DNA from: Desulfobacteraceae bacterium
GTDB taxonomy: Bacteria; Desulfobacterota; Desulfobacteria; Desulfobacterales; SKZT01
Reading direction: 5' to 3'
DNA length: 40,312 nt
Assembly (NCBI GenBank): GCA_011389745.1
Contig: JAABTQ010000031.1
Location: forward strand, 1 to 40,312
Under the pieces are notes generated by a model, which was not told the DNA's origin, did no database searches, and saw only the letters and a list, made by a program, of their open reading frames with translations. The position numbers and the translations under genes are program-made. Of the stretch, positions 20,182-37,103 are shown piece after piece; the stretch's first letter is position 1, and each line of letters opens with the position of its first letter.

Positions 20182-20742
20182 ATGAGTAACAACTTTATCA
20201 ATGATCTGATCGGCGCCCTGAACCGCATCGTCACCCCGGATATTGCTTTGCTTAAGGAGATTCTGATTGTAGGTGGTATGCCCGAAAAAACAGAAAATTT
20301 ACGATATTTGAGCTTTAACCGCTATGTTCATGCAAAAGAAAACAAGAGCATTGAATTTTCCGCTGTGGCTGTCCTCAATAACCGAAGAGTTGAGCACTGG
20401 CGCCTGGAAGGATACCATAAAAAACTGAGTCAGATGGTTTTCAGTACGCGATGGACCCGCAATCCCCTTGATCTATTTCTAAACAAACTTAGATGTGATT
20501 CTGAACTGATGGATATTATTGGTTCGGCAAATGCCCACTATAGTCTATTAGGCATTATGCAAACAGATGAGTTGGAAAAAACCGGCTTATTTAAACACAA
20601 ATTTCGAAGCATCCGTCCTGTTGTTGCCATTCCCGGTATAAATGACAATGATCTGAAAAAAATGATTGAATTTGAAAACAGCAATGAGATTGTTAAATCC
20701 AACGTCAGGGGTATTATGGTGTATCGCAAAGTCGGACGTTAG
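20182..20742 (+). CDS. uncharacterised 186-aa protein
   Basis: I do not recognise this protein. It starts MSNNFINDLIGALNRIVTPD with TTAAGGA about eight bases ahead of the ATG. There is no signal peptide or membrane segment. The middle (about residues 55-125) reads as strands and helices with several tryptophans and aromatic residues (VEHWRLEGYHKK, FSTRWTRNPLD), and the C-terminal part has IRPVVAIPGINDNDLKKMIEFEN and a basic end. Length and composition are those of a normal soluble protein. It stands alone, divergent from rocD and convergent with rluD (46-bp gap). The long leader with its own promoter suggests separate regulation, but nothing shows the role. Confidence 0.75.
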   Translation: MSNNFINDLIGALNRIVTPDIALLKEILIVGGMPEKTENLRYLSFNRYVHAKENKSIEFSAVAVLNNRRVEHWRLEGYHKKLSQMVFSTRWTRNPLDLFLNKLRCDSELMDIIGSANAHYSLLGIMQTDELEKTGLFKHKFRSIRPVVAIPGINDNDLKKMIEFENSNEIVKSNVRGIMVYRKVGR

Positions 20743-26794: not shown

Positions 26795-26869
26795 TGGCTG
26801 GGGCGGGAGGATTCGAACCTCCGAATGCAGGAACCAAAATCCTGTGTCTTACCGCTTGACGACGCCCCA
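26795..26869 (-). tRNA. tRNA-Gln (anticodon TTG)
   Basis: 75 nt including an encoded 3' CCA (26795-26797). The acceptor stem pairs TGGGGCG with CGCCCCA and the discriminator base is G. The anticodon arm is CAGGA, loop TTTTGGT, TCCTG, giving anticodon TTG, which reads CAA (and CAG by wobble). The T arm GGAGG-TTCGAAT-CCTCC is perfect. It lies between ispE and prs. Confidence 0.97.
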
Positions 26870-28359: not shown

Positions 28360-29940
28360 CTAAAGTTCCAGGGGCAGCACCCAGTTAACCAGAGGCAAGG
28401 CCTCTAATGCTACTTTCGCATCCGGAGTAATGGGCGTATCGGTGCGCAGAAAGATGATGTTGTTATCACCCTCTTCTTCCTGCCCCACTGTCATACGGGC
28501 AATATTGATATTGTGCTTTCCGAGGGTAGTTCCGATACTGCCGATAGCTCCGGGTTGGTCCAAATTCTGAATGATGGCCGCGTGGCCCACAGGATTCATT
28601 TCTAAACGAAAATCGTTGATTTTGACAACCCTGGCATCTTTTCTGCCGAATATGGTACCTGATACCGTGCTGGTCATCTCCGTGGTCACGACCTTTAAAG
28701 TGATCAGATTAATGAAATCTTCCGGCTCCGCTTTATTGGTCTCGGTGACTTTAATTCCCCTTTCTTTAGCCAGGACCGGCGCATTTACATAATTTATATC
28801 GTCTTTGACGATTGGCGTCAGAATTCCTTTTATGGCGGAAGTGGTGACCGGAGCAAGATCAAGCCCCTGAAAATCCCCGGCATACTCCACTGAAATTTCC
28901 TGCAATGCCCCGCAAATGAGCTGAGCTTGCAAACAACCCATCCGGTCGCCCAAAAACAGATACGGCCCGAGCTTTTTCAATAGTTCACCAGTAACAGAGG
29001 GAACATTGACCGCGTTTCGAATGGTACCGTTTTTTAAATAATCGATAATCTGCTCCGCAACCTGAACAGCCACGTTGGTCTGTGCTTCTTTAGTTGATGC
29101 GCCCAGATGAGGAGTGCAAATCACCTGATCCAGTTCAAGCAGCGGAATCAACCCCGGAGGCTCGGTTTCGAAAACATCCAGTGCCGCCCCGGCTACCTTT
29201 CCGGACTTGATTGCTTCATACAAATCCGCTTCTTTAACGATCCCCCCGCGGGCACAATTGATAATCATCACGCCGTCCTTCATTTTTTCAAAAGACGTTT
29301 TATTGATCAGGCCGACAGTTTCTTTCAACTTGGGGACATGCACGGTAATATAGTCTGCCCGACGGTACAATTCCTCAAGGGTTACATTTTCAAATCCGGT
29401 TTTTGCAATTTGTTCCGGGTTGACAAAAGGATCATAAATAATCACCTGCATTCTCAAACCACGCGCACGGTCAGCCACAATAGAACCGATTTTTCCGAAA
29501 CCAATCAAGCCGACTACTTTATTAAAAAGTTCCTTGCCCTGAAGTTTTTTCTTATCCCAACGTCCGGCCTTTAAAGACAAAGTGCCCTGGGGGATGTTCC
29601 TGCTTAAAGAAACCATCATACCGATCGCATGCTCGGCTGTGGTCACCACATTGCCCGTAGGTGTATTCATTACGACCACACCTCTTTTTGTGGCTGCGGG
29701 AATATCCACGTTGTCAAGGCCGATGCCGGCTCGGCCGACAACCTTCAGATTTTCGGCGGCACTAAGCAAGTCTTCCGTAACCTTGGTGGCACTTCGGATT
29801 ACCAGACCATCATATTGACCAATGATTTCCTTTAATTGCTCAGGAGAAAGACCGGTTTTAACATCAACCTGAATACTTTCTTCCTGCTGGAACATCTTAA
29901 TTCCTTCCTCGCCGAGATTATCGCTAACCAATACTTTCAT
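28360..29940 (-). CDS. serA: D-3-phosphoglycerate dehydrogenase, long type with ACT domain
   Basis: A 526-residue enzyme that oxidises 3-phosphoglycerate to 3-phosphohydroxypyruvate, opening serine synthesis. The substrate and NAD domains hold GFGKIG (residues 147-152), D170 as the NAD-binding acidic residue, R231, E260 and the catalytic H278 in CTPHLGASTKE. A middle intervening (ASB-like) domain covers about residues 320-440, and a C-terminal ACT domain, for likely serine feedback, starts near 445 (DQPGAIGSIGTTLGKHNINIARM). The ATG at 29940 has AGGGGG six bases upstream; an adjacent in-frame TTG at 29946 overlaps that site. It is divergent from the regulator starting at 30188. Confidence 0.96.
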   Translation of the reverse strand: MKVLVSDNLGEEGIKMFQQEESIQVDVKTGLSPEQLKEIIGQYDGLVIRSATKVTEDLLSAAENLKVVGRAGIGLDNVDIPAATKRGVVVMNTPTGNVVTTAEHAIGMMVSLSRNIPQGTLSLKAGRWDKKKLQGKELFNKVVGLIGFGKIGSIVADRARGLRMQVIIYDPFVNPEQIAKTGFENVTLEELYRRADYITVHVPKLKETVGLINKTSFEKMKDGVMIINCARGGIVKEADLYEAIKSGKVAGAALDVFETEPPGLIPLLELDQVICTPHLGASTKEAQTNVAVQVAEQIIDYLKNGTIRNAVNVPSVTGELLKKLGPYLFLGDRMGCLQAQLICGALQEISVEYAGDFQGLDLAPVTTSAIKGILTPIVKDDINYVNAPVLAKERGIKVTETNKAEPEDFINLITLKVVTTEMTSTVSGTIFGRKDARVVKINDFRLEMNPVGHAAIIQNLDQPGAIGSIGTTLGKHNINIARMTVGQEEEGDNNIIFLRTDTPITPDAKVALEALPLVNWVLPLEL

Positions 29941-30026
29941 TTTCAACCCCCTGAGAAATTTTTATCAAAATCAGATATTTATACAGATAAAATTATAACG
30001 ATTTTTAATAGTAAGATAAATTTTGT

Positions 30027-30055
30027 ATAACATCTGAGTTCATTAAATTTGTCAA
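30027..30055 (-). promoter_or_regulatory. candidate promoter of serA
   Basis: TTGACA on the minus strand (30050-30055) is a perfect -35 box. With 17-bp spacing the -10 would be TGTTAT (30027-30032), four of six matches; a TATAC sequence a few bases further on is an alternative. It is about 85 bp before the serA ATG, in the 247-bp gap shared with the divergent regulator. Confidence 0.4.
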
Positions 30056-30187
30056 GGGTAAAGCATATTTTTAGCCGATGAAGACAATTTATTTTTTTTA
30101 AAGTGAATCATTTTTTCCTTGCTCCAAACCATTTTGGCGTATAGAATTTTGATATTTTAATTGTTAACACTTACAAAACGAGGAATT

Positions 30188-31489
30188 ATGACAGGGGATC
30201 GACTGCGTGTTTCATCCGGGGTTGGTGAACTTGACCGGCTTCTTGGCGGCTTATTTATCGGTGACAATGTTGTCTGGTACGACGATGCCGGAAGCCTTGC
30301 TCTTGTTTTTTGCCTCAACTTTATACAGACGTCCCAGTCACAAAACAAACCCATTATTTATGTCAGTTTCGACAGAAGTCCAAAAAATCTCCTGGAAACG
30401 CTGGGACCTTTGGCACGATACCCGCTGCTAACCATTTTAGACTGTTTTACCCATGGCAAAGGTGAAAGCAATGAGGTTTTTTTAAAATTTTATCAAAACA
30501 CAAAAATTAAAGAAGCCGGGCGCATCATAGCGGTTGAAAATCCACGGAGTGTGGAAAAAACCATGAATGCTTTTTACGGGGTACATTCCACACTTGAAGG
30601 TGATGTCCGGTTCGTTTTTGAAAGCCTCACCGGAATGCAAAAACTTTGGGCAGGAGAAGAAGACATCCTAAACTTTTATTCTCACTCCTGCCCCCGTCTT
30701 TATGAATTAAACACCGTGGCTTACTGGATTATCGAAAAGCGCGCCCATTCCTCAAGGCTCAGAGCACAAATCAATCAGGTGGCACAAGTGGCTATCGACC
30801 TTTCTCTGAAAAGAGGTAAAACCACCTTGAGCATTATAAAAGCAGAAAAACGACAAATAGATACAATCAATACTCCTTTCAAATACTGGACTCAGGATTT
30901 AACGATTACGTTTGACCCGGAAAAAAAAAGCACGGGCGGAATAGACCTGGGTATGCGTTTTAAAGAGCTTCGGATTAAAAGAGGCTTCTCCCAGACTGAG
31001 CTGGCCAAACTGGTGGGCGTGACACCCTCAAGTATTTCACAGATTGAAAGCAACCTTATTTATCCCTCCCTTCCGGCCCTTTTAAAAGTTGCCGAAGTAC
31101 TTTCAGTAAATGTCAGTTCCTTTTTTCAGGATTCACCCAAAATCACCAACCACGTTGTTTTTCCGTCATCGGAAGCCCTGGATTTTCAATTACCCGGAAT
31201 TCCCAAAAAAAGTGCTCACACCAAGCGACTGACTTCGGTGGATTTTAATCCGAAAGCAGAACCATTCCTTATTGAAATCCCTCCAAAAGAAACCCTTTTA
31301 TCTCACTTTTTTATCCATAAAGGTGATGAAATGGGCTATATGCTTTCCGGCAAACTTACGCTCAAAATGGAAAAAACATCCTTTACCGTCAAACCCGGAG
31401 ATGTGATTTATTTGACTTCGGAGATGCCTTTGCAATGGAAAAATCCGGGTCCCGGCATTGCAAAACTTCTTTGGATCAAATTAAAATAA
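30188..31489 (+). CDS. KaiC/RadA-like domain (no Walker A) - XRE HTH - cupin fusion regulator
   Basis: A 433-residue three-part protein. Residues 1-240 resemble the RecA/KaiC fold: GVGELDRLLGGLFIGDNVVWYDDAGS stands where KaiC and RadA have the P-loop, but the GxxGxGKT residues are missing, so ATP binding in the usual way is unlikely. Residues of about 255-312 are an XRE-type helix-turn-helix (FKELRIKRGFSQTELAKLVG, then TPSSISQIES). Residues of about 360-430 are a cupin (FIHKGDEMGYMLSGKLTL, KPGDVIYLTSEMPLQW). XRE-cupin proteins usually sense small ligands; here a degenerate ATPase fold has been added in front. GAGGAA lies just before the ATG at 30188, which decides the start over a TTG at 30161. 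It is divergent from serA and may control it; that is inference. Confidence 0.85.
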   Translation: MTGDRLRVSSGVGELDRLLGGLFIGDNVVWYDDAGSLALVFCLNFIQTSQSQNKPIIYVSFDRSPKNLLETLGPLARYPLLTILDCFTHGKGESNEVFLKFYQNTKIKEAGRIIAVENPRSVEKTMNAFYGVHSTLEGDVRFVFESLTGMQKLWAGEEDILNFYSHSCPRLYELNTVAYWIIEKRAHSSRLRAQINQVAQVAIDLSLKRGKTTLSIIKAEKRQIDTINTPFKYWTQDLTITFDPEKKSTGGIDLGMRFKELRIKRGFSQTELAKLVGVTPSSISQIESNLIYPSLPALLKVAEVLSVNVSSFFQDSPKITNHVVFPSSEALDFQLPGIPKKSAHTKRLTSVDFNPKAEPFLIEIPPKETLLSHFFIHKGDEMGYMLSGKLTLKMEKTSFTVKPGDVIYLTSEMPLQWKNPGPGIAKLLWIKLK

Positions 31490-32630: not shown

Positions 32631-32951
32631 TTATTTGGATCTGATTAAAGTCAACAACATTTTAAATCTCTTAACCGCCTTTAAGGCATGAGGTTCATTG
32701 GCCGGCATGACAATCATCTCACCTTGTTTAAGTTGATACGGATTTCCGGATATCCTGATTTCCACCTCACCATCCAGAACCTGGACCATGGCATCAAACG
32801 GAGCCGTATGCTCACTCAACCCCTGCCCCTGATCAAATGCGAATAACGTCACGGTCCCGGTGTTTTTCTCAACGATTGTTTTACTGACAATCGCCTCATG
32901 CTGATATTCCGCCATGTCCGCCAAAACAACCGGCTTTAATTCCTTTTTCAT
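32631..32951 (-). CDS. small cupin-domain protein
   Basis: A 106-residue single-domain cupin. The beta-barrel motifs are recognisable: HTAPFDAMVQVLDGEVEIRISG (residues of about 48-68), then KQGEMIVMPANEPHALKAVKRFKMLLTLI with the second-motif histidine. The first motif keeps one metal-type histidine (H48) but the second histidine of the usual HxH pair is not present, so metal binding is possible but not proven. AAAGGA lies six bases before the ATG. Related short cupins are found in many anaerobes with no assigned substrate. It is the first gene of the pair with the antiporter. Confidence 0.85.
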   Translation of the reverse strand: MKKELKPVVLADMAEYQHEAIVSKTIVEKNTGTVTLFAFDQGQGLSEHTAPFDAMVQVLDGEVEIRISGNPYQLKQGEMIVMPANEPHALKAVKRFKMLLTLIRSK

Positions 32952-33561: not shown

Positions 33562-35361
33562 ATGAATTCTCCTTCATCAACAGATACCCGCCCTTTGGTT
33601 CGATGGCTTATATCACAGGCAAAATCTGTTTGCCTCTGGATTTTTCTTTCCATTGGGATTGCATTTCTTGGTGGTTTGCTTGTTGTCTTACAAGCCCGCC
33701 TGATTGCCGATATCATTCATGGGGCGTTTATGGATCGATTGCCACGCGAAGAACTCTTGCCCATGTTCACTTTATTGGCCATAGTGATAGCTATCCGCGC
33801 TTTCCTTCAATGGGCGAAGGAGGTTTCCGGGTTTCAGGCAGGAGCACGTGTCCGTGAAAAGCTTCGAATGTCCATACTAAGACACCTGGCTGAATCAGGG
33901 CCGATCGGCATTGGCGGAAGACCCGCCGGTGCTTTGGCCAGTGTTGCGATAGAACAGGTTGAGGCAGTTCACGGCTTTTTTGCTGACTATCTTCCACAGT
34001 TGGTGATTGCTTTTCTGGTCCCAATCACCCTGGTGGCTTTTGTTTTTCCCATCAGTTGGGCGGCCGGAGCTCTGCTGCTGGCCACAGCCCCAATGGTTCC
34101 CCTTTTTATGGTGCTGATTGGAATGGGTGCTGAAAGTATCAGCCAGCGAAATTTCCAGGCACTTTCCCGAATGAGTGCTCATTTCCTTGATATTCTCCAG
34201 GGCCTGGGAACACTCAAACTGTTCGGTCGAAGCCGGGCTGAAACCGGATCTATCGAAAAGGTTTCCGAGCAATACCGCCTGCAAACCATGAAAGTATTGA
34301 AGGTCGCTTTTTTATCCGCAGCCGTGCTCGAATTTTTCAGCTCTTTTGCCATCGCCATGACGGCTATTTATTTAGGAATGAGTTTTCTGGGTTACATCAA
34401 TTTCGGAACCTACGGCACACCTCTGACTTTTGCCGACGGACTGTTCATTTTGATTCTAGCCCCGGATTTTTATCTTCCACTGCGGGACCTGGGAAGCCAT
34501 TTTCATGTCCGGGCGGAAGCCGTTGGAGCAGCCGGGGAAATCCAAAAGGTATTTGCGCTTCCAGTGAAAAAACAGGAAGGCGTTATTCCTACCTGGCAGA
34601 AGGGACATCCACTTAATATCCGTTTTGAAAATGTGCATTACGCATTTGATGGTGGCCGAAATGCTGTGCTTTGCGATGTTGACCTGGAGATTCAATCTGG
34701 AAAACGACTGGCAATTGTTGGTGCAAGCGGTTCGGGAAAGACAACGATCGGCCGGTTGCTGCTCACCTTTGGCCAACCCTCTGACGGTCGGATATTAATC
34801 AATGGCGTCGATCTTTCCACTCTGGATCCGGAATCCTGGCAAAAACACGTCTCATGGATCGGGCAACACCCGGTGTTGTTTCACGGAACCATTCGGGAAA
34901 ACATCAGGGTCGGCAATCCTGATGCTTCCAAAGAAGAGTTCGAGGCCGCAGCAACTGCCGCTTCCGTCAATGTTTTTACTGATCGCCTTCCGCACGGAAT
35001 AGATACTACCATCGGGGAACATGGCTCAGGCCTGTCCCGGGGCCAGGCACAACAGGTGGCATTGGCCCGCGCTTTTTTAAAAAATGCGTCCCTTATTTTA
35101 CTTGACGAGCCCACAGCCGGTCTGGACAGTGAAACTGAAACTAAAATTATGGATGCCATATTCAGGTTCTGCAAAGGTCGAACTTTGATTTTCATGACCC
35201 ACCGCCTTGGCCGCATTCATGAGGTAGACCAGATCGTGGTGCTGGCGAACGGAAAAGTCGCCGAGCAAGGCACTTTCGAAGAACTGATTCATTTACGGGG
35301 TTTGCTGTCACAATTTTTAACATCCCTGAATGAAGGGGTTCTTTTTTCGGAGGGCACATGA
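33562..35361 (+). CDS. cydD: heterodimeric ABC exporter subunit CydD (cytochrome bd assembly)
   Basis: A 599-residue fused membrane/ATPase half-transporter. About six membrane helices (residues 15-330) precede the nucleotide-binding domain: Walker A GASGSGKTT near residue 386, signature LSRGQAQQVALARA and Walker B LILLDEPTAGLD. With CydC it exports glutathione/cysteine (or haem-related) compounds to the periplasm, which cytochrome bd needs for assembly. The stop overlaps the CydC start in ATGA, so translation is coupled. The signature has R in place of the more usual second G (LSRGQ), an asymmetry seen in heterodimeric exporters. Only a weak ribosome binding site is seen before the ATG at 33562. 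Confidence 0.95.
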   Translation: MNSPSSTDTRPLVRWLISQAKSVCLWIFLSIGIAFLGGLLVVLQARLIADIIHGAFMDRLPREELLPMFTLLAIVIAIRAFLQWAKEVSGFQAGARVREKLRMSILRHLAESGPIGIGGRPAGALASVAIEQVEAVHGFFADYLPQLVIAFLVPITLVAFVFPISWAAGALLLATAPMVPLFMVLIGMGAESISQRNFQALSRMSAHFLDILQGLGTLKLFGRSRAETGSIEKVSEQYRLQTMKVLKVAFLSAAVLEFFSSFAIAMTAIYLGMSFLGYINFGTYGTPLTFADGLFILILAPDFYLPLRDLGSHFHVRAEAVGAAGEIQKVFALPVKKQEGVIPTWQKGHPLNIRFENVHYAFDGGRNAVLCDVDLEIQSGKRLAIVGASGSGKTTIGRLLLTFGQPSDGRILINGVDLSTLDPESWQKHVSWIGQHPVLFHGTIRENIRVGNPDASKEEFEAAATAASVNVFTDRLPHGIDTTIGEHGSGLSRGQAQQVALARAFLKNASLILLDEPTAGLDSETETKIMDAIFRFCKGRTLIFMTHRLGRIHEVDQIVVLANGKVAEQGTFEELIHLRGLLSQFLTSLNEGVLFSEGT

Positions 35362-37103
35362 AGTTATTCCGTACCCTTTTTCCGTTTATTCGACGTTTCC
35401 GTCCCCATCTTTACCGGATGTTCCTGGGAACACTTTCAGGGGCCATCGCCCTGGCTGCCGCTGTGGGTCTGCTTTCCTTATCCGGATGGTTTCTTTCGGC
35501 TGCCGCTTTTGCCGGGTTGACCTCGGCCACCGCCCAGACATTCAACTTTTTTTATCCCAGCGTGGGAGTGCGATTGTTTGCCTTTACCCGGATTATCTCA
35601 CGATATGGTGAACGCATTATTGCCCATGATACCACCTTTCGCATTCTTAAGACCCTTAGAGTCTGGTTTTATGAAAGCATTGAGCCGCTTGCCCCTGCAT
35701 GCCTGTCAAGATACCAAAGCGGAGAAATTCTAAACCGCCTGGTTTCAGATATTGACGCTCTGGACAATCTGTATATCCGGATTTTGTCTCCGGCTGTGTC
35801 GGCATTTTTGATCGTCATATTCCTGGGTATTTTCCTCAGCATGTTTGATGCCGTCCTTTCAGCAGCAGCATGCGGGATTCTTATAATCGCCATTGTGGTT
35901 GTGCCTTGGGCAGCTTCAGTTTCCTCCATGGGCATCGGACAAAATCTGGCCAAAATCAGTGGGATACTTCGCACCCATATTATTGAGGGCATCCAGGGAT
36001 TGACCGATCTGATCGTATTCGGAGCCATGAAAAAGCACCTGGAACGATTAAGCAGCTATCATCGGCAAATGATATCACTTCAGCGACAGATGAGTCATTT
36101 CCGGGGGTTGAGTAACGCCTCCATATCCTTGTTATCCGGATCTGCCGTCTGGATACTTTTATTTATCGGAGTATCTCTTGTGGATTCCGGCAAACTGCCG
36201 GGAGTATTTCTGGCATGCCTGGTACTGGCAGTATGGGCGGCTTTTGAAGCAGCCGTTCCTCTGGCCCATGCGTTTCAGCACCTGGGGCGTACACGGGAAG
36301 CTGCCGAACGTATCCACGAGATCATCTCGATACCACCTGCGGTTCTGTTTACGGAAAAGTCCAAGGGTGATCCTGAAACCTATGATATCGATTTTCAAAA
36401 TATCCGTTTTCACTATCATCCTGAAGACCCACCGGTTTTTGACGGGTTTAATTTCAAGATTTCTCACGGCCGGCGGACAGCGCTGGTAGGGGAAACCGGA
36501 TGTGGCAAATCGACCCTGGTTCATTTGCTGACACGCACATGGGATCCGACGAGAGGCCGTATCTGTATCGGAGACCTGGATTTGAAGGATTTAACCCAGG
36601 ATGAGCTTCGCAAATCCATAACCGTCATTTCTCAGCAGGCACACATTTTTAACGGAACACTGGCCGACAATCTGAAAATTGCCCGACTTGATGCCGGTAA
36701 ATCGGACATACTCCATGCTTTGGAAACGGTACGCCTGGCGGATTTTGTTTATTCCCTGCCCCAAGGTCTGAACACCTGGGTTGGTGAGAGCGGACATTGC
36801 CTCTCCGGAGGCCAGGCCCGAAGGCTTGCCCTGGCACGGGCTGTTTTGCATGATGCACCCGTGTGGGTGCTGGATGAACCCACCGAGGGATTGGACAAAA
36901 TCACTGAAATGGAAGTGATGCAATCACTGATGGAATGTGCCAAAAACCGCACCGTACTGATCATCACCCACCGGCTCCTGGATTTTCAAAAAATTGATCA
37001 GGTCGCTCTCATGGACAAGGGTCGTATAATCGCTTCAGGGTCCCACCATGACCTTATACAGGCCAATAACCGTTACCTCAAATTAGTGAGCAAAATGGTC
37101 TGA
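35358..37103 (+). CDS. cydC: heterodimeric ABC exporter subunit CydC (cytochrome bd assembly)
   Basis: A 581-residue partner of CydD with the same fused layout. The N-terminal segment begins MKLFRTLFPFIRRFRPHLYRMFLGTLSG and leads into about six membrane helices. The nucleotide-binding domain holds Walker A GETGCGKST near residue 378, signature LSGGQARRLALARA and Walker B VWVLDEPTEGLD. With the CydD half it makes a complete transporter. It overlaps cydD by 4 bp and is followed at 73 bp by the Rrf2 regulator, with a candidate promoter between them. Confidence 0.95.
   Translation: MKLFRTLFPFIRRFRPHLYRMFLGTLSGAIALAAAVGLLSLSGWFLSAAAFAGLTSATAQTFNFFYPSVGVRLFAFTRIISRYGERIIAHDTTFRILKTLRVWFYESIEPLAPACLSRYQSGEILNRLVSDIDALDNLYIRILSPAVSAFLIVIFLGIFLSMFDAVLSAAACGILIIAIVVVPWAASVSSMGIGQNLAKISGILRTHIIEGIQGLTDLIVFGAMKKHLERLSSYHRQMISLQRQMSHFRGLSNASISLLSGSAVWILLFIGVSLVDSGKLPGVFLACLVLAVWAAFEAAVPLAHAFQHLGRTREAAERIHEIISIPPAVLFTEKSKGDPETYDIDFQNIRFHYHPEDPPVFDGFNFKISHGRRTALVGETGCGKSTLVHLLTRTWDPTRGRICIGDLDLKDLTQDELRKSITVISQQAHIFNGTLADNLKIARLDAGKSDILHALETVRLADFVYSLPQGLNTWVGESGHCLSGGQARRLALARAVLHDAPVWVLDEPTEGLDKITEMEVMQSLMECAKNRTVLIITHRLLDFQKIDQVALMDKGRIIASGSHHDLIQANNRYLKLVSKMV

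Follow-up and report, generated by a model that had tools for sequence, protein, structure and literature searches.

A conserved regulator with a P-loop-less KaiC-like domain as a candidate repressor of ammonium-assimilation genes in Desulfobacterales

The locus and the encoded protein

The DNA analysed here, referred to as the window, is a stretch of 40,312 nucleotides (contig JAABTQ010000031.1, assembly GCA_011389745.1) from a Desulfobacteraceae bacterium. It contains a regulator gene whose product consists of a pseudo-KaiC domain, an XRE-type helix-turn-helix (HTH) and a cupin (Table 1). A GAGG lies 4 nt upstream of the ATG, and the same start is found in most homologues. The HTH and cupin behind the N-terminal domain, predicted in the initial annotation of this DNA, were recovered by Pfam as HTH_3 (residues 259-309, E 3.5e-14, 53 bits against a cutoff of 23) and Cupin_2 (residues 361-430, E 1.2e-11, 44.5 bits against 27.2); with both above their cutoffs, the protein belongs to the XRE-cupin regulators. 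In an alignment of 56 sequences the cupin residues H373 and E381 are invariant, while H377 is kept in 47/56 and Q416 in 38/56. The gene faces serA, which encodes phosphoglycerate dehydrogenase, across a gap of 247 bp, as had been described. The window also encodes, near the regulator, a stand-alone cupin-like protein of 106 aa (32631-32951, minus strand), two consecutive ABC-transporter ORFs (33562-37103, plus strand) that look like a putative CydDC-type pair, and a tRNA gene (26798-26869, minus strand; Rfam RF00005).

Table 1. Coordinates of the regulator gene, its domains and the adjoining features in the window
Feature	Position	Strand	Basis or remark
serA (phosphoglycerate dehydrogenase), divergent neighbour	28360..29946	-	adjacency unconserved; promoter region without operator
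Weak site resembling the operator, upstream of the regulator's ATG	30159..30175	.	8.4 bits; probably functionless
Regulator gene	30188..31489	+	433 aa; ATG start; GAGG at 30180-30183
Pseudo-KaiC domain, residues 2-249	30191..30934	+	AlphaFold2 and VIA-align
Degenerate P-loop position, residues 25-38, GDNVVWYDDAGSLA	30260..30301	+	conservation
DRSP, residues 62-65	30371..30382	+	D62 and S64 invariant
XRE/HTH_3 DNA-binding domain, residues 255-312	30950..31123	+	Pfam
Cupin domain, residues 360-430	31265..31477	+	Pfam and conservation

A KaiC fold that lacks the P-loop

The Pfam match of the window protein to KaiC (PF06745; residues 8-72, E 5e-4) stays below the gathering cutoff of 26.6 bits, with 19.9 bits for the full length and 22.1 bits for the domain alone; among homologous N-domains, 20/26 match the family at E values up to 1, the best at 2.9e-8. 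The fold was examined on an AlphaFold2 model built on the 56-sequence alignment (mean pLDDT 85.5). Compared by VIA-align, residues 2-249 of this model match PH0284 (2dr3) with Z 24.1 and an rmsd of 2.2 over 218 residues, and KaiC (7s65) with Z 23.9, the alignments spanning 207-218 residues. The KaiC/RecA fold of the N-terminal part, originally proposed from residues 11-36 (indeed GVGELDRLLGGLFIGDNVVWYDDAGS), is borne out by the model confidence and these Z values of about 24.

At the P-loop position G25, D26, N27, V28, D32, G35 and L37 are invariant in all 56 sequences. The Walker A motif GxxxxGK[ST] occurs in 0/56 homologues, 0/40 further distant or additional loci and 0/15 relatives fused to PPDK_N, and GDN[VI][VI]W is kept at its position, down to about 33% identity, in all but two divergent paralogues. 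Since Walker A is missing from every relative examined and its replacement is retained, the loss noticed in the single copy is ancestral and family-wide. The two divergent paralogues, L245 (genome G302) and L246 (G326), carry PETVLW instead of GDNVVW, and assimilation genes are absent from their vicinity. The protein differs from the KaiC/RecA-superfamily ATPases represented by PF06745 and PH0284, with which it shares the fold, in having no Walker A and in its DRSP segment, which we take, also from the order of the motifs, to correspond to the catalytic Glu pair of KaiC, with Asp-Arg in its place. Further invariant residues include D85, K91, S146, T148, C168, E183 and H187. It is plausible that a KaiC-like ATPase domain has been turned into a binding or scaffold domain.

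Members with a matching N-domain were found in about 62/146 genomes of the same order, and the pseudo-KaiC domain itself in 146/395 genomes of a phylum-wide search. In the GTDB species genomes 42 loci were found, nearly all of them from metagenome-assembled genomes and isolates of Desulfobacterota/Desulfobacterales, and the members include Desulfobacter latus and Desulfosarcina species. The regulator is conserved across the sulfate-reducing Desulfobacterales. In one subfamily, of about 350-370 residues, the protein stops behind the HTH and the cupin is missing, so pseudo-KaiC and HTH form the core, to which the cupin was added or from which it was lost. As this cupin-less subfamily retains the P-loop-less KaiC domain, the HTH, the operator described below and the genomic context, the KaiC-like part rather than the cupin is the constant module.

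The same genome encodes a paralogue of about 870 aa (contig 77, ~77400-80100; L002/L176), in which a pseudo-KaiC domain with GDNVVW is fused to PPDK_N. Profile comparison relates the domain families of the regulator and of the PPDK-type proteins with a probability of 99.7 and E 3e-26, and the model of the fused paralogue (mean pLDDT 74) matches KaiC at Z 15.4. In 9/15 loci this paralogue has an assimilation gene, of the GDH family or another kind, in its vicinity.

Linkage to ammonium-assimilation genes

The surroundings of the regulator were compared across 86 family loci. Ammonium-assimilation genes lie within 9 kb in 50/86 of them and are immediately adjacent in 40; for a control set of ordinary XRE-cupin genes, drawn from same-order genomes, the count is 1/40 loci. 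These neighbours are glutamate synthase, GDH, GlnA, GlnK, AmtB, GlnD and GltB, with identities verified by NCBIfam or Pfam; the glutamine-amidotransferase-like GATII seed was named from sequence and context only, without a Pfam hit. Among the neighbours, an FMN-binding glutamate synthase is the most frequent; it is mostly convergent and downstream, and the linkage extends to subfamilies 33-45% identical. An ORF-based count gave 46/86 linked family loci versus 0/40 control loci (Fisher p 1e-10), and the regulator and glutamate synthase co-occur (56/63 versus 42/83 genomes, p 9e-7), with p-values that treat loci and genomes as independent and overstate this independence because the genomes are related, the flanks also being unequal in length. 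Two observations count against a role in ammonium assimilation: 36/86 loci are unlinked, some of them with flanks shortened by contig ends, and within 9 kb of the window's own regulator no assimilation gene was found. At several loci (L036, L079, L086 and L090) the next gene 3' of the regulator, at a distance of about 130-280 bp, encodes a Cys-rich protein of 105-140 aa without a Pfam family.

A candidate operator in glutamate-synthase promoters

The upstream regions of the linked assimilation genes were pooled with those of the regulators and searched for a common motif. Expectation maximisation (EM) with a mononucleotide background drifted toward AT-rich sequence, which an order-2 background cured; the best-scoring random starts then converged on atTtAGTtnaACTaAat. 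The operator obtained de novo is a 15-bp palindrome, TTTAGTnnnACTAAA, located between the -35 and -10 elements of glutamate-synthase promoters. In the best sites, e.g., TTGACAATTAAAATTAGTACAGCTAATAA, it lies 8 bp past TTGAC and overlaps the -10 box. On held-out upstream regions of unlinked glutamate-synthase genes, 18/19 from regulator-positive genomes score at least 9.9 (shuffles 2.4), versus 5/19 glutamate-synthase upstreams from regulator-negative genomes (shuffles 1.5). The strict pattern TTGACN{5,9}THAGYNNNRCTDA precedes glutamate synthase in 22/56 regulator-positive and 2/42 negative genomes, matches having been assigned to genes by hand from coordinates (p 8e-5, with the same overstated independence). 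The window's own genome contains a single strict match, at positions 20640-20665 of contig 19, which is the glutamate-synthase promoter; another operator sits some 30 bp 5' of it, the pair falling within 20638-20709. As the reversed pattern also gives 2 chance matches there, the contig-19 match counts by its position and not by number.

The palindrome is tied to the regulator family by the cupin-less members, which carry it before their own gene (8/10 with at least 12.5 bits; shuffles 0.23). Most members of the main group have no such self-operator, 11/85 reaching at least 9.9. In the window itself the operator search gave no result above chance, and a scan of 29901-30200 found nothing in the serA promoter region and, as its best hit, the site before the regulator's own start listed in Table 1. 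The operator also has exceptions that speak against the proposed regulation: the distant subfamily of about 432 aa (L221-L232) has only weak sites before glutamate synthase, and a few regulator-negative genomes (G134, G006, G042 and G124) carry a good operator.

In the commoner subtype of glutamate synthase, most genes carry two A..G.. hexaloop hairpins and a terminator in the stretch from the operator to the coding sequence, an arrangement that has been reported for ANTAR targets (PMC3369931). The leader in the window's own genome (L281, contig 19, 20365-21165) contains the hairpins GCACAATGGCGTGC and AAGACAAAGGCGTCTT followed by a terminator, and a GAF-ANTAR protein is encoded directly upstream of it; by this layout it is predicted to be subject to ANTAR-type attenuation. 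An Rfam scan of related glutamate-synthase leaders returned zero families at the gathering threshold. ANTAR elements at glutamate synthase have already been reported in Desulfotomaculum (PMC3369931). Another palindrome 5' of glutamate synthase, AGACaacgttGTCT, was considered as an operator and set aside, because it is the second of the two hexaloop hairpins that, with the terminator, make up the ANTAR-type leader.

Discussion

The most probable function of the protein, to which we assign a probability of about 0.72, is that of a repressor acting via TTTAGTnnnACTAAA on genes of ammonium assimilation, above all glutamate synthase, with the pseudo-KaiC domain reporting nitrogen/glutamate status and the cupin as an accessory. 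The XRE HTH would bind the palindrome 8 bp after TTGAC, and its far half-site would cover the -10 element and block RNA polymerase; it is from this coverage that repression is inferred. The target in the window's genome would be the glutamate synthase on contig 19. The N-terminal KaiC-fold domain, its ATP-binding and catalytic motifs gone, would bind a ligand or partner, oligomerise and in this way receive the nitrogen or glutamate signal, and the cupin, missing from one subfamily, would be a second sensor. Where an ANTAR-type leader follows the operator, the regulator would control the initiation of the glutamate-synthase transcript and ANTAR its elongation.

The gene layout in the window would by itself suggest a different target, namely serA, with which the regulator shares a divergent intergenic region and to which the initial annotation had implicitly linked it. 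We regard control of serA as very improbable. A conserved serA neighbourhood was sought around the other family loci examined and was found near none of them, so the adjacency appears to be specific to the window's genome; the best site between the two genes, of 8.4 bits, belongs to the start of the regulator and not to the serA promoter, and both neighbourhood and operator evidence favour the assimilation genes. The supposition that the P-loop was lost recently, in a damaged window copy only, has practically nothing left to it: it is excluded for all sequences examined, from the regulators to the PPDK-fused relatives, by the absence of Walker A throughout and by a replacement motif conserved over great divergence. 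More has to be said about the operator. It could belong to another, co-occurring regulator, the protein described here using a different site or activating the assimilation genes, and both its persistence in some genomes that lack the gene and the scarcity of self-operators in the main group agree with that. However, the presence of the operator tracks that of the regulator, and the cupin-less subfamily has the same palindrome before its own gene, an arrangement typical of autoregulation, so this alternative seems to us unlikely.

A further question concerns the signal step only, and either answer is compatible with a repressor. Instead of sensing a small molecule, the pseudo-KaiC domain may be a hub for protein interaction or oligomerisation, with partners such as PII or the PPDK_N paralogue. 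KaiC-like domains normally form rings, a PII gene immediately adjoins the regulator at L091, L098 and L100, and the domain is shared with the PPDK_N fusion that so often neighbours assimilation genes. The invariant polar residues D32, D62, S64, D85, K91, C168, E183 and H187 would, however, suit a ligand pocket too, and we consider the hub a real possibility without preferring it. More doubtful, in our view, is the extension of the repressor model to the paralogue, in which the GDNVVW pseudo-KaiC domain would be a nitrogen/glutamate-status sensor common to the glutamate-synthase repressor and to the PPDK_N protein near glutamate dehydrogenase, and hence a common receptor for ammonium assimilation in Desulfobacterota, acting ahead of the ANTAR attenuation of one and the same transcript.

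An earlier description of the regulator was not found in the open-access literature. Its kind is already known, given the inactivated KaiC of archaea (PMC5847659) and the recruitment of an enzyme fold by BzdR (PMC3602430); its combination of domains and its proposed target are new. The archaeal signalling domains named iKaiC, including DUF835 and MEDS (PF14417), likewise have a KaiC fold without an active P-loop and are fused to other domains (PMC5847659), and the regulator, a signalling protein with a KaiC fold and a degenerate P-loop, falls under this definition. However, iKaiC has been described from archaeal two-component systems, whereas the domain described here is bacterial and fused to an XRE HTH, with or without a cupin, and to PPDK_N. 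Among the Pfam matches listed, MEDS appears for neither the window protein nor the regulator N-domains, and it matched 8/15 PPDK-type domains weakly (E up to 1, best 3.4e-4). With PuuR the protein shares the succession of HTH_3 and Cupin_2, the layout of small-molecule-responsive regulators; it differs by the 250-residue pseudo-KaiC domain before the HTH, by its gene context and by its proposed operator, and it scores 61.2 bits against a cutoff of 211 with the NCBIfam equivalog model of PuuR. BzdR is an XRE-type regulator with a recruited enzyme-like domain as well, in that case shikimate-kinase-like (PMC3602430). The enzyme fold is a different one, since Pfam finds no shikimate-kinase domain in the window protein, whose KaiC-like domain lies N-terminal to the HTH with the cupin after it.

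A regulator and an operator can thus be proposed for glutamate synthase in sulfate reducers that form a large group of environmental importance. The family would also provide a bacterial example of a former ATPase with a KaiC fold that now serves in regulation. It comes with a defined candidate operator, and the conserved residues of its candidate pocket make the question of the ligand testable. If the sensor is indeed common to the repressor and the PPDK_N protein, then ammonium assimilation in Desulfobacterota would have a P-loop-less ATPase of the clock type as its shared receptor.
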